A stretch of 22,292 bases of DNA from positions 1 through 22,292 of IMG/VR virus record IMGVR_UViG_3300028392_000316. One strand, 5' to 3'. Below, in pieces: positions 15,529 to 21,786 of the stretch (its first letter is position 1; the number at the start of each line of letters is the position of its first letter). Both the position numbers and the translations under genes were made by a program. Below the pieces are notes generated by a model. That model made no database searches. It was not told the DNA's origin and worked only from the letters and a program-made list of their open reading frames with translations. The DNA is from a virus.

Positions 15529-16875
15529 TTAGTAACCTGAAGGAGTGATTGCGCCAGTTCCGCTGATGCCAGAAACGGCCTTTGCGAAGCGGTGAATCAG
15601 TGCAGCGTAACCGTAGACCTGGAAACGAACGGTCAGGTTTGCAGACAGAACGTCTGGAAGAACGCGAGTCTTCACGCCTGATTCGAACAGGTAGGAGTCG
15701 CTGAACTTGCCAACCAAGATTGGTGACTGGTTCGTGCCAACAGTGTTCTTCAGTGTTGCGTCAACGTAGACAGGAACACCGTAGATAGAACCAACAAGAC
15801 CAGCAGCAGCGCCAGGAGCGGTTGTAACACCACCGGCGTTGAATGGGCCGTTGCCAGTTGGAACGATAAGCGGACGGCTCTGGCCATCAACTGCACTGGC
15901 TAGCCAGTACCAAGTTGAAGGAGCCATAACGATGGCTTCTACATCCTTGTAACGGTTTGTTACGACGTTGCTGATTGCCTTCGTGATAGCAGTCAGACCG
16001 CCAGTTGCTGAAGGAGTGGTTTCAGTCCAAGTGGTTGGAATACCGTTTGTGGTATCCGTACCAAGTGTGACGAAGCCCTTCAGTGAGCCAGCAGTTCCAG
16101 CGCCGTTACCTGCAACAGCAGTGTTCAACTGCAATGCGTAGTCAGCCATCAAGTCGCCGAAGATTAGCTTGTCAAGACCACCAGCGATAGGGCTTTGCTC
16201 GATTAGCTGAATGCTCACGTTTTCGAAGCCACTAATAGTTTCTACACGACCAGTAACGGTTGAGGTTACAAGGTCGCGAGGTGACGTTGGAGCGTAGGTG
16301 CTTGAGTTGTCAGCAGCCTGGAAACCAGTGCGTGAACCTGTGGTGATAGCAGGAATGTTGATGCTATCAGTGCCAGCAGGAAGCGCCATGTTGGTTGTTA
16401 GGTTTGCAGTAACACGAGCCGCACGAGCGAACTCTGCGTATTCGTTGATTAGGTACAAAGGTGGAACAAAGTCGCCACCGCTTGTGTCGGTGCGGTTGAT
16501 GTCACGAAGTTCAACAGCCATTTCAGCCTGGTGGCGGTTAAGGCGGTCGAATGAATCGCGGTCACCACGAAGCTGTGAGTTGATCATGTCGCGAACGAAA
16601 GAGTTGTCTGAACCCTTGTCGTAAGTCATGGCCTCACGAGTAACAACGGCAGAACCGAAGGTTGGAACATTCGCAGCAGCGCGAACTTCCTTGAGTTCAG
16701 CAGTACGAGCCTCAAGAGCCTCTGCTGCTTCAATCTTGCTGTCGAGATCCTTGATCTCTGCGTGACGTGCTTCTGCTGCATCTAGTGCCTCAGTAGTCAC
16801 TTCACCAGCAAGGAGTGCCTCAGCATCAGCTGCGGCGGTAGCGCGAGATTCGCGCAAAGAGTCCAACATGGACAT
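15529..16875 (-). CDS. HK97-fold major capsid protein
   Basis: The 448-residue protein forms the icosahedral shell. Residues 1-70 are a charged helical region (L-L-A-G-E-V-T-T-E-A-L-D-A-A-E-A-R, then E-A-L-E-A-R-T-A-E-L-K-E-V), equivalent to the delta or scaffolding domain that the neighbouring protease removes. The mature fold follows: F-V-P-P-L-Y-L-I-N-E (136-145), I-N-I-P-A-I-T-T-G (172-180), then G-F-E-N-V-S-I-Q-L-I-E-Q-S-P (215-228), I-M-A-P-S-T-W-Y-W-L (315-324), S-I-Y-G-V-P-V-Y-V and a final F-R-V/Q-V-Y-G-Y-A-A-L-like strand. AAGGAG lies 5 bases before ATG 16875; a second ATG two codons later is weaker. It is flanked by RNA stem-loops on both sides, fitting high expression. Confidence 0.96.
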   Translation of the reverse strand: MSMLDSLRESRATAAADAEALLAGEVTTEALDAAEARHAEIKDLDSKIEAAEALEARTAELKEVRAAANVPTFGSAVVTREAMTYDKGSDNSFVRDMINSQLRGDRDSFDRLNRHQAEMAVELRDINRTDTSGGDFVPPLYLINEYAEFARAARVTANLTTNMALPAGTDSINIPAITTGSRTGFQAADNSSTYAPTSPRDLVTSTVTGRVETISGFENVSIQLIEQSPIAGGLDKLIFGDLMADYALQLNTAVAGNGAGTAGSLKGFVTLGTDTTNGIPTTWTETTPSATGGLTAITKAISNVVTNRYKDVEAIVMAPSTWYWLASAVDGQSRPLIVPTGNGPFNAGGVTTAPGAAAGLVGSIYGVPVYVDATLKNTVGTNQSPILVGKFSDSYLFESGVKTRVLPDVLSANLTVRFQVYGYAALIHRFAKAVSGISGTGAITPSGY

Positions 16876-16910: not shown

Positions 16911-16961
16911 GTCGCCGAGGCAGAAGCGTCGGGGACATCTCTAAGGGATTGCCCCTAGAGA
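16911..16961 (-). terminator. Two stem-loops between the capsid protease and major capsid genes
   Basis: The first (16961-16938) has ten pairs, UCUCUAGGGG with CCCUUAGAGA, loop CAAU, one G-U. It contains the protease stop codon TAG. The second (16936-16911) pairs GUCCCCGA with UCGGCGAC around the loop with one mismatch. Together they may reduce read-through or cut the transcript so that capsid mRNA is made or kept separately. No U tract is seen. Confidence 0.5.
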
Positions 16962-18865
16962 GAATCAAGTTTGAACTTCAGCGCAACTTTACGCTTGCGA
17001 AGTTCGAGGTCATCTTCGACAGAATCTTCAGAACGCATTCCGACAGATGAAGCGTCATAGGCTGGCCACGTCACAACCGAAACCTCAAACAGGTTCAAGT
17101 CGGTTAGTGTGCGAAGACCTTCCTCGCGAGTGTCACCTCCAGGAGCAACACTGAAAGCGAATGACATCTTGTCAACGTCGCCACGAGTAAGAGCCGAAGC
17201 CAACTCGGCAGCGCGAGGATTCGAAGGGTCAAGCGTTGCTTCCATGCGAAGACCGACATTGTCCTCAGATAGAACCAACGTGCCACCCTGAGTCGAAGCC
17301 AACGGCAACTGGTCGGTGTCATGGTTGACAAGTAGGAACACTGGGTCGCCAGACTTCAATGATCGAGTGAAAGCGCCAGGCGCAATCATCTCGCGGAAGT
17401 TTAGACCGGTTGCTTCCTTGTTGAACTGTGCAGCATAACCACCAATTCGAAGTGAACCATCATCGGTAGCAACAGCACGAACCTCAGCCTCAAAGGTTAG
17501 ACGTTCAGCGGAAGCAATAGCAGACTTGCGTTCTTCAATCATTAGACCCTCACTAAGTTCAGCGGAGCGAGGCTCGAAAGGCACAACCAAGGTTGGATCT
17601 TCGAACTGAGTCGCCATCTTGTCGTAATAGTCAGAAACCTTCGTCTTGATAGTGGCAATGTCCTCTTCAGGAATGTCCACGCCACCACGAGCGCCATTCA
17701 AGACACCAGCCACAGCAAAGATTCCACGAGGAATAGCAGTCAAAGTTCCGCCAATAATGTCAGCGAACTGCAACTTGTAGCCGCCAAACTGACCCTTCTT
17801 GTCAGGGTTGACATAGAAGAAGGCTTGAGCGTACTTGTTCCAATCGCCATTAGCCCAATCACGAACACGACCCTCAGCAGCTGAAGATTCCCACTTGTAG
17901 TCGCGAGAGCCAATCGGCAAATCTGTTGAGCCTGAAGCAGAGCGCATACCGTCGATTGACTGCATCATGTGGTCAGCAATAGTAGGCTCATCGCCCATGT
18001 CATCCTCATCCACACCCTGAGCATCCAATGGGTCAGGTGAAGGCTGAGTAACTTCCTCGCCAAGCGAAGCGGTCAGTTGCCACTTGTAGAACTGCTGGTC
18101 GTCAATAGCGCCAGCAATGAAATTGGCGATTCCCTGCTGGTTGAAAGCGACAGCGCAATCAAACACATCAGCAAGTTCATCCAAGAACACATCGTTGGCA
18201 GTCAGAAGGTCACGAGCAAGGCTCATAGGATCTTGACCGGGCTTTGCATCCTGCAAGTATCCAAGCATTGCGAACTCTGCAAGGTGGAACGGAGCAACTG
18301 AACCAATCTTGCGAAGGTTCTCAGCAATCGGGTCAATGAGTTCGTAGGCGGTTTCATAAATCTTCTGGAACAGCTTGTGGTATTCGCTGAAGTCAGCGCC
18401 CTTCACGTTCCAATGTGCGCCATGAGCGCGGAAGTAAAACTGAACCGCAGTTCCAAGCAACTCGCTCAACTCTTCGACTAGGTCGGGAGTTGACTCCGAA
18501 TCTCTTTTCTCCATTGTTTCTCCAATGATAAGTGCTGAACGTGCAGCCATTTTGTCGCGAATAGAACGTGACCATGCGAACCCTGCATCCCCACCCCAAG
18601 CAGACCAAGCCACGCGGCCAGCACTTGGGAAACCATCTTCGCCAGAATTGAAGCCAGTTGCCTTCTTGTCGACCTCATGACGTGCAAAGAATGAATACAT
18701 TCTCAGCACAGTTTCGAGCGACATACGCCTTCCAGCCGCCAAATCGCTCGCACGCTTGCGACCGGTGTCAGTGAAGCCTGAGCCAGCCTTGCCGTCAGCA
18801 ATCCAGCCAAGAGCCTTCTGAGCCTCGTCACGAACAGTCTGTGGTGGTCGGAAAGTATCAGCCAT
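16955..18865 (-). CDS. Multidomain prohead protease with internal Dps/ferritin-like domain
   Basis: The C-terminal part (about 455-612) is an HK97-type prohead serine protease that cuts the capsid delta domain. The likely catalytic triad is H515 (L-V-N-H-D), S568 (K-M-S-F-A-F) and E594 (L-F-E-V-S), with M-I-A-P-G-A-F (493-499) and W-P-A-Y (600-603). Residues 320-420 are a conserved phage region (R-V-R-D-W-A, then G-Y-K-L-Q-F-A-D-I, A-I-P-R-G-I-F-A, A-R-G-G-V-D-I-P-E). Residues 1-108 carry another (R-H-E-V-D-K, P-S-A-G-R-V-A-W, W-G-G-D-A-G). Residues about 128-268 look like a Dps subunit, with H151 (A-H-W-N-V-K-G), H163, D178 and E182 spaced as the ferroxidase ligands of that family. The total of 636 residues is about three times a usual protease. 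ATG 18865 overlaps the portal stop (TAATG). Confidence 0.88.
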   Translation of the reverse strand: MADTFRPPQTVRDEAQKALGWIADGKAGSGFTDTGRKRASDLAAGRRMSLETVLRMYSFFARHEVDKKATGFNSGEDGFPSAGRVAWSAWGGDAGFAWSRSIRDKMAARSALIIGETMEKRDSESTPDLVEELSELLGTAVQFYFRAHGAHWNVKGADFSEYHKLFQKIYETAYELIDPIAENLRKIGSVAPFHLAEFAMLGYLQDAKPGQDPMSLARDLLTANDVFLDELADVFDCAVAFNQQGIANFIAGAIDDQQFYKWQLTASLGEEVTQPSPDPLDAQGVDEDDMGDEPTIADHMMQSIDGMRSASGSTDLPIGSRDYKWESSAAEGRVRDWANGDWNKYAQAFFYVNPDKKGQFGGYKLQFADIIGGTLTAIPRGIFAVAGVLNGARGGVDIPEEDIATIKTKVSDYYDKMATQFEDPTLVVPFEPRSAELSEGLMIEERKSAIASAERLTFEAEVRAVATDDGSLRIGGYAAQFNKEATGLNFREMIAPGAFTRSLKSGDPVFLLVNHDTDQLPLASTQGGTLVLSEDNVGLRMEATLDPSNPRAAELASALTRGDVDKMSFAFSVAPGGDTREEGLRTLTDLNLFEVSVVTWPAYDASSVGMRSEDSVEDDLELRKRKVALKFKLDSL

Positions 18866-20088
18866 TAGTCAAGCACTCCCATAACAGGTGCGCTCGGATC
18901 AGCATCCTCACCCAAAGAGGCAAGGTCACCGCCAGCAACCACGTTACCCATGAGAGCCTGATTGAATGAATCGCCACCTTCGTAAGGTTCGCGACCAATA
19001 ATCTGGCGAGCCTCATTCGGGCTAGAAACACCCTTGTCGATGTAGACACCAGCAACTTTCGCCTGAGTCAAAGAATCAGTGCGAAGAAGTGAAGCAAAGT
19101 CGAATACAACATCCTGACCAATAGGCAGAAGTTCGGAAAGGGCAGTTTCAAGACGGCGAACCCAAGGAGTAAGTGTGTGCGTCAAGAAGTTCAGGTTTGC
19201 CTGTTCCACGTTTTGGTAAGTCTGATTATCGCCAGTAACACCCATAAGGTGACCGGGGATTCGATAGACACGAGCAATGTCACGAATCAACTGCTCGCGA
19301 GTGGCAATCATTTCCATGTCAGCTGCGCTGGTTGTGATAGGCGTGAACTTCAGGCCATCAGACAAGACCGCTGGACGGCGACGACGACGGTGAGTTGCTT
19401 CCCACGTTCCCTGAATTGTGCGAGCCTGATCGAGCGTCAACTTCTGGTCAGTGCTAAGAACGCCAGAAGGAGTTGCACCTTCGCCGTAGAACTGTGACAG
19501 GTGACGATCCATTGCTAAGGACAGACCGACAAGGGTTCGTGACTGAATCAAAGGTGACACACCAACCAGCGACTGCGGTGGAGTGAACCAACGAATGTGC
19601 ATCAAAGACTCGTTCGCCATCTCATTACCGAGATGCAAATACACTCGACCAATCTGGTCACCAGTAGGCAACACCTGCATCTGGTACGGATGTAACGGCA
19701 CAAGACCAATGAGGTTGCCACGAGTGTCAACATCCTTGTGAATGTAAGCGTTTCCATGAAGGACAAGCGAAGCCATCACCTGATGAATAAACTCGAACGT
19801 GTTTGTGCCTGAGATGATGTCAGGCTGCGCCAGAGATGAAGGCAACGGAACATTCTTACGCTGACCGTCAATCACTTCATAACAACGAAGCGGAAGTGAA
19901 GCCACCGAGTCACACAACAACGTGACAGCCGACATGACGCTCGAAACACCAAGCGCAGTCCACTCATCGACACGTTCGCCAGCGCTCGAGGTTACTTGAG
20001 TCTGGCCATACAGCTGGGACAGTGGTGCGACATAGTTGTTGAACTGTGGGTAACGCCCAACTACCGAAGACCGGCGGAGAATACTCAT
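18865..20088 (-). CDS. HK97-family portal protein
   Basis: The portal is the dodecameric ring at the unique vertex through which DNA enters and leaves. This 407-residue protein has the family pattern: V-S-S-V-M-S-A-V-T-L-L-C-D-S-V-A-S-L-P-L (48-67), L-V-L-H-G-N-A-Y-I (108-116) and L-V-P-L-H-P-Y-Q-M. Next come S-P-L-I-Q-S-R near 180, F-Y-G-E-G-A-T-P-S-G-V-L and R-V-Y-R-I-P-G-H-L-M-G. The end holds V-S-S-P-N-E-A-R-Q-I-I-G-R-E-P, the conserved end-of-portal segment. Its ATG overlaps the stop of the small membrane gene (ATGA) and its stop overlaps the protease start (TAATG). No truncation is seen. Confidence 0.96.
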   Translation of the reverse strand: MSILRRSSVVGRYPQFNNYVAPLSQLYGQTQVTSSAGERVDEWTALGVSSVMSAVTLLCDSVASLPLRCYEVIDGQRKNVPLPSSLAQPDIISGTNTFEFIHQVMASLVLHGNAYIHKDVDTRGNLIGLVPLHPYQMQVLPTGDQIGRVYLHLGNEMANESLMHIRWFTPPQSLVGVSPLIQSRTLVGLSLAMDRHLSQFYGEGATPSGVLSTDQKLTLDQARTIQGTWEATHRRRRRPAVLSDGLKFTPITTSAADMEMIATREQLIRDIARVYRIPGHLMGVTGDNQTYQNVEQANLNFLTHTLTPWVRRLETALSELLPIGQDVVFDFASLLRTDSLTQAKVAGVYIDKGVSSPNEARQIIGREPYEGGDSFNQALMGNVVAGGDLASLGEDADPSAPVMGVLD

Positions 20089-20234
20089 TCGTTACCTGCT
20101 AAATAAGAGAAGACAAGGGCAAAGATGCCGCCGACAATAAGACCAAAATCGATACCGAAGTGAAGGCTAATTCCTGCACAGACTGAGCCAGCGCCCACAA
20201 TTTCAGTTGCGGTTGTGATGTGGTCACGATTCAT
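20085..20234 (-). CDS. Small membrane protein of 49 residues between terminase and portal
   Basis: ATG 20234 lies inside the last codons of the large terminase gene (11-bp overlap) and the TGA overlaps the portal start (ATGA). The product has a polar start (M-N-R-D-H-I-T-T-A-T-E) and is then hydrophobic. One or two helices fit, at about 12-24 (I-V-G-A-G-S-V-C-A-G-I-S-L) and 28-46 (I-D-F-G-L-I-V-G-G-I-F-A-L-V-F-S-Y-L-A). It resembles a tiny holin-like or membrane-anchoring peptide. A small membrane gene at the terminase-portal junction could place head assembly at the membrane, but that is speculative. Confidence 0.78.
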   Translation of the reverse strand: MNRDHITTATEIVGAGSVCAGISLHFGIDFGLIVGGIFALVFSYLAGNE

Positions 20235-21786
20235 CAAACTCACCCATTCCGTCTAGGTCATCAAGGTCAAAGATCATTGGCAAGCCGCCACCCTGCCCAT
20301 TCCACCAGGCAGCACGTTCAAGGCCCATAACAGCGGCAACCGCCAAGTCGATACGTCGAGCCGAATGTCGGCTTTCCTTCGACAAGCGAGAACCACGAGC
20401 ATCAGTTCGCAAAGTTGCATTCGACACATGACGAGCAAACATCGGGTCACCGTCATGCGTCATCGACTTGTTCATCACAGCCTCATAGAAGCGAGTGGTC
20501 GCTGGAGTCATGCGACTTGCGCTCTGAGGGAACAAGACAACAGGAAGATTCTCATCCTCAAGCACCTGAAAAGTTCTCGCCCAACGGTAAGGATCGCAAG
20601 CAATCTCCTCAACCTGCCACTTCAGGCAAGCATTACGAATCGACTGCTCAACATCTGCCACTGGAACTTGCCAGTCAGCAGCCTCATTGTCAGGCTTCTC
20701 CCACGCCTCAACTACGAAAGCATGAGGCACATCCTCGACCGTCACGCCAACAATGGCAGTACAGTCACCGTTGTAAGACCCATCAAAGGCAAGCACAACG
20801 GCAGTGCCATCCTCAACAATGCGCTCAGAGGCAATGCCATCCCACGCGCCAGCAGGAAGCCAAGTGTCCGAGGTCGACATCCACTGATTGCAGCGCTTTG
20901 TTCGGAACTCAGACTCAGGCGTTCGGTTAATAACCGACTCAAAATCTGAGGCGGCAACAATGTCATCAAAGCCAGGATTGGCATCAAGCCAAGTCTTCGG
21001 GTCACGATGGTCAGACTCAGCTGAGGCTTCCCACCATGCGAAGAAGAATGACGGGTCAGTGACCTCGCCAGTAGCAACCTTCTGGCCGTACTGGTAAAGC
21101 CCATAACACAAAGAATCCCGACCGCTGGAATCAGTCTTGACCCCTGCGGTAGTGATGCCCACCATCATTGGTTCTTTGCGAGCGCCCTGAGCGAGGCTCA
21201 TAACATCCCACAGTTCACGGTTCGGTTGTGCGTGAACCTCATCGAAGATGGTCAGCGTTGGGCTGAGGCCTTCCTTGGTGAAACTTTCACTCGAGAGTGC
21301 GCGGTAAGTCGTGCCACTCTTCGGGTTGTAAATCGTATCTCGGAACACCTGCAAGAAGTCCGACAGTTCAGGCTGAAGGCGAATCATTTCCTTCACAGTG
21401 CCAAACACAATCTTTGCCTGGTCGCGGTCAGCGGCACAAGAATAAATCTCACCGCCAGAAGGGCCGAGCACTAAATGCTCAAGGGCAAGAGATGCAGCCC
21501 AAGCCGACTTGCCATTCTTACGGGGTAATCCGATAAGGGCAGTTCTGTGGCGCAAAGTTCCATCAGCCTTCTGAGCAAACAGTTGGCGAGTCAGTTCGCG
21601 TTGCCAAGGTCTGAAGGTCATCGGTGAGCCAGCATCGCCAGCGATAGATTCCTTCGTGATCTTGCACAAAGCCTCAGCGAAGTCGACAACTTCCTCGCCA
21701 CGACTACGCTTCAAATCGGCAGGTGGCACAGTGGTCACCCATCGTGGTGGCCACGCCTGAATCTTGCTTCGCCCCTGAGTTGCCAT
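20224..21786 (-). CDS. terL: Terminase large subunit
   Basis: The large terminase is the ATP-driven motor and nuclease that packages phage DNA. The ATPase half has Walker A at 86-94 (G-L-P-R-K-N-G-K-S) and Walker B at 178-186 (L-T-I-F-D-E-V-H-A), with D182 and catalytic E183. The RNase H-like nuclease half has acidic D335 (L-A-F-D-G-S), D398 (A-C-D-P-Y) and D480 (R-R-I-D-L-A-V-A). The length of 520 residues is usual for this actinophage-type family. ATG 21786 overlaps the small-subunit stop (TAATG). The acidic tail (F-D-L-D-D-L-D) may contact the portal. The packaging strategy, cos or headful, is not decidable from this window. Confidence 0.97.
   Translation of the reverse strand: MATQGRSKIQAWPPRWVTTVPPADLKRSRGEEVVDFAEALCKITKESIAGDAGSPMTFRPWQRELTRQLFAQKADGTLRHRTALIGLPRKNGKSAWAASLALEHLVLGPSGGEIYSCAADRDQAKIVFGTVKEMIRLQPELSDFLQVFRDTIYNPKSGTTYRALSSESFTKEGLSPTLTIFDEVHAQPNRELWDVMSLAQGARKEPMMVGITTAGVKTDSSGRDSLCYGLYQYGQKVATGEVTDPSFFFAWWEASAESDHRDPKTWLDANPGFDDIVAASDFESVINRTPESEFRTKRCNQWMSTSDTWLPAGAWDGIASERIVEDGTAVVLAFDGSYNGDCTAIVGVTVEDVPHAFVVEAWEKPDNEAADWQVPVADVEQSIRNACLKWQVEEIACDPYRWARTFQVLEDENLPVVLFPQSASRMTPATTRFYEAVMNKSMTHDGDPMFARHVSNATLRTDARGSRLSKESRHSARRIDLAVAAVMGLERAAWWNGQGGGLPMIFDLDDLDGMGEFDES

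Follow-up and report, generated by a model that had tools for sequence, protein, structure and literature searches.

The genome of an uncultured phage encodes a prohead protease of 636 aa which, by sequence, carries a genuine Dps (mini-ferritin) domain with an intact predicted set of ferroxidase ligands. The window, i.e. the whole stretch of DNA analysed, is a 22.3-kb metagenomic virus record (22,292 nucleotides). The explanation that best fits the data, to which a probability of about one half is assigned, is that an S78 protease bears a Dps-type ferroxidase as cargo, and that both are taken into the procapsid. Phage Dps proteins and S78 proteases are each already known. Literature text searches found no paper describing a fusion of Dps to a prohead protease, although such fusions are present among database entries from uncultured phages.

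The source virus is an HK97-like tailed phage of ordinary layout with an unusual protease. Genes follow one another on the minus strand in the order small terminase, large terminase (20224–21786), portal (18865–20088), 636-aa protein (16955–18865), and HK97-type major capsid protein (15529–16875), so that portal and capsid genes are the upstream and downstream neighbours of the protease gene; glycosyltransferase, head-tail adaptor, tail proteins and tape measure come next. ORF analysis, Pfam and PHROG profiles divide the protein into an N-terminal domain, Dps, a middle domain and the protease. The N-terminal domain (residues 1–107, 18545–18865, minus strand) matches PHROG 2859 at residues 6–103 (E=9.6e-40), a family annotated as of 'unknown function' which recurs in other phage head proteins; in the full-length AlphaFold model it is predicted as a separate helical domain. 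The middle domain (residues about 300–436, 17558–17968, minus strand) occupies a swappable slot: some relatives lack it, and others have it together with a TUDOR module. The Peptidase_S78 domain PF04586 spans residues 460–612 (17030–17488, minus strand; E=3.5e-39, 135 bits against a curated cut-off of 21), and phrog_80, a head maturation protease family, matches the protein with E=6e-48. H515 and S568, which we take to be the catalytic His and Ser of S78 proteases, are invariant in 26 relatives. The match to S78 and the location between portal and capsid genes bear out the initial annotation, which had placed a Dps domain within a capsid maturation protease. Dps and protease domains lie in one continuous ORF, and no stop codon separates them in the close family.

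The Dps domain corresponds to residues 128–268 (18062–18484, minus strand). Pfam Ferritin (PF00210) is found at residues 131–269 (E=1.9e-11, 44.5 bits against a cut-off of 24.5), and PHROG 3636, a Dps-type 'DNA binding protein', at residues 127–269 (E=1.7e-17). Top matches in a phmmer search of PDB chains are all Dps or Dps-like (best E=3.4e-12). The domain modelled by AlphaFold from a 12-member alignment (pLDDT 93.3, pTM 0.88) is predicted to contain, besides four long helices, the short BC helix typical of Dps. Top matches of the model in Foldseek and VIA-align are all Dps proteins; Listeria innocua Dps (1qgh) aligns over 147 residues with Z 22.1 and rmsd 1.4 Å, well above the Z of about 13 below which, as the aligner warns, helical bundles may share their arrangement only. 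The high confidence of the model and the Dps-only structural matches exclude a chance resemblance. Significant ferritin/Dps profile matches and a predicted four-helix bundle thus uphold the identity that the initial annotation had read from the letters, with exact boundaries. The HWNVKG motif is literally present (residues 151–156), and the putative ligands H151 (18413–18415, within the motif), H163 (18377–18379), D178 (18332–18334) and E182 (18320–18322), all read on the minus strand, have the claimed spacings of 12, 15 and 4. Fold, BC helix, HWN motif and the four inter-subunit ferroxidase ligands, the latter by sequence and with identical spacing, are shared with members of the Dps family such as L. 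innocua Dps, HP-NAP and H. cinaedi CAIP. Unlike these, which are free subunits of about 18 kDa, the domain is very acidic and forms part of a 636-aa viral protein, in which other domains precede and follow it. The protein is therefore regarded as one containing a Dps domain, rather than filed as a Dps protein.

The H/H/D/E ligand set is invariant in 170/170 distinct Dps domains from all architectures. H151 and H163 are partly ascertained, because H151/W152 and H163 formed part of some search patterns; D178 and E182 were absent from all patterns, and one search used the S78 part alone. Within the close family, too, an alignment of 75 domains with 52–100% identity to that in the window shows no variation at the four positions. 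Median dN/dS values (24–25 pairs) measure 0.081 for Dps, the lowest within the protein, 0.098 for S78, 0.099 for the N-terminal domain and 0.183 for the linkers. The Dps domain is under strong purifying selection. Invariance of the ligand set rules out a decayed domain.

The fusion is frequent among phages of lakes (freshwater), as judged from sequence searches. The whole protein matched 403 stretches in IMG/VR, of which the best 79 loci were kept, and the Dps domain alone matched 276. The same uninterrupted fusion ORF was found in more than 100 distinct relatives from many metagenomes. A query made of S78 only, and thus blind to Dps, retrieved 67 complete ORFs from close relatives, 56 with Dps fused and 11 without. 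A tblastn search of a phage isolate collection found no isolate with a Dps-protease fusion, and a plasmid search returned, among the matches listed, only ordinary bacterial Dps proteins, about 30% identical. Comparison of relatives indicates that Dps is a swappable module of the protease. Loci L140, with Dps, and L226, without, have N-terminal domain, a four-cysteine (Cys4) module and S78 in common, share up to 96% identity over their best-matching segment, and differ mainly by Dps at one linker. The interval between Dps and S78 holds, in relatives, the middle domain, a TUDOR module, both, or neither.

Other ARRANGEMENTS include a second phage group, in which the order is reversed to S78-(TUDOR)-Dps. 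Pfam Ferritin was detected in 19/19 of these proteins, S78 in 17/19. Giant ORFs in L160 (645–5942, 1766 aa) and L159 (3–6737, at least 2245 aa) unite PHROG 2859, portal/head-protease-like sequence and a Dps domain. Free Dps genes directly follow the major capsid gene in L139 (4375–4965) and L147 (4848–5435), and in L158 (4995–5423) the free gene lies between the capsid gene and that of a protein with a head-protease-like C-terminus. In form, then, the link between Dps and head proteins is recurrent. In the Dps tree, which samples three bacterial Dps and one Dps of a gut phage, a branch with support 100/99 sets the domains from phage contigs apart from these four. The tree hints at more than one fusion event, and the opposite domain orders suggest, short of proof, an independent origin of Dps-first and S78-first fusions. 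Single-clade tests for the two types were not rejected (p-AU 0.27–0.40), and independent origins are therefore not claimed.

Two candidate internal translation starts were identified within the protease gene. The first, ahead of Dps (18512–18523, minus strand), combines the Shine-Dalgarno (SD) sequence GGAG at 18520–18523 with the ATG of M118 at 18512–18514 (duplex -6.4 kcal/mol), the second, ahead of S78 (17540–17551, minus strand), GAGG at 17548–17551 with the ATG of M442 at 17540–17542 (-6.9 kcal/mol). Most relatives feature an in-frame ATG with a strong SD site just before Dps and before S78 (examples are GAGGAGGGTGACATG and CGGAGGATTTATCTATG), and the encoded residues vary while the position of the site is kept. 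Sites were scored as the best ATG per 26-codon window by the anti-SD duplex in 40 representatives. A duplex of -5 kcal/mol or lower was found before Dps in 37/40 and before S78 in 31/40; the same threshold is passed by 120/1507 control windows and 29/30 true starts. Controls were synonymous shuffles, other internal ATGs and sliding windows. The signal is strong relative to the last two and modest relative to the shuffles, for which the combined p is about 1e-4 (pre-Dps) and 1e-5 (pre-S78) over non-independent genes, per-gene support being modest. Part of the signal survives shuffling because the Glu-rich acidic linkers favour GAG-rich codons. In S78-first proteins no such start was found ahead of Dps, except possibly in L161 and L174. 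Nested translation is likely, and the three predicted products, initiated at M1, M118 and M442, would measure 636, 519 and 195 aa, the shortest corresponding to the bare S78 protease. Conserved internal starts may point, more generally, to a way in which phages adjust accessory modules attached to morphogenesis proteins.

In HK97-like phages, the S78 protease enters the prohead and cleaves capsid proteins as well as itself. From this HK97 paradigm we infer that the proteases described here are likewise taken up into the procapsid, and we also infer the iron oxidation, oligomeric state, cleavage and benefit set out below. The protease would carry the covalently attached Dps inside during assembly. 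Dps subunits would pair in the procapsid, or in the assembling complex, H151 and H163 of one subunit forming a diiron site with D178 and E182 of the partner. Such sites would consume Fe(II) plus peroxide or oxygen, keeping Fenton chemistry off the capsid interior and the DNA awaiting packaging. Maturation cleavage in the flexible linkers may then release or remove the domain, and the nested starts probably set the number of protease copies provided with Dps. In favour of Dps as a ferroxidase cargo count the profile and structure matches, the invariant ligands, the low dN/dS, the portal-capsid context, the proportion of fusions retrieved by S78 only, the reversed order, the giant proteins, the free Dps genes near capsid genes, the internal SD and ATG signals, the low-confidence linkers predicted on both sides of Dps in the full-length AlphaFold model, and the precedent of ferritin-fused encapsulins discussed below. 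Against it count the 11/67 close relatives in which Dps is dispensable, the modest shuffle support, and the poor S78 part of the full-length model (pTM 0.31, S78 mostly at pLDDT below 50), from which inter-domain conclusions are not drawn. The proposal of the initial annotation that the procapsid takes up Dps by way of the protease is thus kept as the best explanation available, uptake itself being argued by analogy; another of its proposals, a 12-mer assembling at the portal, is unsupported.

The protein resembles prohead proteases of the HK97 gp4 type in its S78 domain, the invariant H515 and S568, and the position of the gene between those of portal and major capsid protein; it differs from them by some 440 extra N-terminal residues, including Dps, and by the probable nested starts. 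Stand-alone phage Dps proteins (Lactobacillus phage Semele, 'Gratiaviridae', freshwater phages) match PHROG 3636, have the same ligands, and form with the window domain a phage clade apart from the bacterial Dps sampled. They are free and have been read as a defence against reactive oxygen species (ROS), whereas the Dps of the window is joined to a protein of head morphogenesis. The Dps fold within long phage proteins is found also in BFVD entries from uncultured Caudovirales, some named prohead protease (A0A6J7XDU5 and A0A6J7WPK9, 'Prohead protease'; A0A6J5RFH1, 'DNA-binding protein Dps', 622 aa); the entries provide names only.

Encapsulins, considered to derive from viruses, are characterised by ferritin-like enzymes enclosed in HK97-fold shells. 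In Flp-fusion encapsulins (P. furiosus, S. solfataricus) a ferritin-like domain is fused to the HK97-fold shell protein and internalised (PMC8346489), and the idea of covalent delivery into such a shell makes them, by analogy, the nearest working counterpart of the protease-Dps fusion. There the shell protein carries Flp, a decamer; here the protease of a DNA phage carries Dps, and the major capsid protein is encoded by a separate gene. The sequence data suggest that, in many freshwater phages, a ferritin-like enzyme enters the nascent shell along with the protease. An intact ferroxidase on an enzyme entering the procapsid, in a widespread phage lineage, would give viruses their own form of the encapsulin arrangement, and, if so, oxidative or iron damage during assembly would exert genuine selection on lake phages. 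A bolder version is unlikely as a whole: a working mini-ferritin, loaded on the protease in a dose set by the starts, would be kept in the virion past protease autodigestion, and the shell would become a ferritin-loaded HK97 compartment detoxifying iron and peroxide around the genome, or passing ferroxidase or iron on to the host infected next. Such a shell, if real, would be the DNA-virus counterpart of ferritin-carrying encapsulins.

The main rival of Dps as a procapsid cargo is a role in cytoplasmic iron or ROS defence, in which Dps acts in the infected cell, and fusion to the protease, an abundant late protein, merely secures late expression. Free phage Dps proteins are known and read as host ROS defence (PMC8008677, PMC6669764), ROS-defence genes, ferritin included, are common in freshwater phages (PMC6802176), free Dps genes close to the fused domain exist, and the ligands are invariant in fused and free forms alike. 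The repeated association with head proteases, the two domain orders, the portal-region proteins, and free Dps genes beside capsid genes (L139, L158) are nevertheless left unexplained, and this explanation is considered doubtful, if still the most serious of those competing with cargo delivery. Another function may be structural. Dps proteins self-assemble, and the fold could serve as a dimer or dodecamer former clustering protease subunits in the prohead, iron chemistry being secondary or vestigial. Dps is located where scaffold-like extensions occur, and other helical modules fill the same slot in Dps-less relatives; yet invariance of all four ferroxidase ligands across divergent domains and contexts is not expected of an assembly module, which is thus rather improbable.

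The initial annotation had considered an iron-oxidising or a DNA-protecting subunit. The former, as a putative activity, agrees with the intact, invariant ligands and with purifying selection. That the domain binds and coats packaged DNA is suggested by the family name, and by the PHROG label, but its net charge of -14 (-16 to -10 in the fused family) argues against coating, the linker which follows is also acidic (-10), a Lys-rich tail is absent, and some Dps proteins protect without DNA binding (title of PDB 1o9r), which makes DNA binding a very improbable function. A chimeric contig or chance fusion, conceivable for a metagenomic virus record, has next to no probability and is refuted by the more than 100 distinct homologous ORFs, and by dN/dS far below 1 (about 0.08).

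Additional modules were noticed in the same genes. In five Dps-less proteases (L350, L246, L245, L346, L079) another helical stretch of about 70 aa, with the pattern '..DAAQ.LL....V.QAYYL..AADAAL..', occupies the Dps slot. The match to Pfam Hva1_TUDOR narrowly misses the curated cut-off in the Dps-first protein taken as example, and exceeds it in S78-first proteins; inserts of this type occur in protease linkers of L178, L196, L045 and others, either adjoining Dps or between the middle domain and S78. Free Dps genes adjoin, in L188, L195, L199, L207 and L217, long proteins with cytidyltransferase-like sequence ('CAFG.FQPPTAGHELLV'). The Cys4 module, with four invariant Cys residues and the pattern YRP..SEDVP...CxxC...C...YC.AW, gave no significant match in Pfam and none among PDB sequences, the resemblance to HiPIP iron-sulfur proteins being not significant (E=0.45). 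It is found in the proteases of L140 (3620–5257), L226, L231, L237 and L223, as in that of Pontimonas phage phiPsal1 (L145, 3320–4771).
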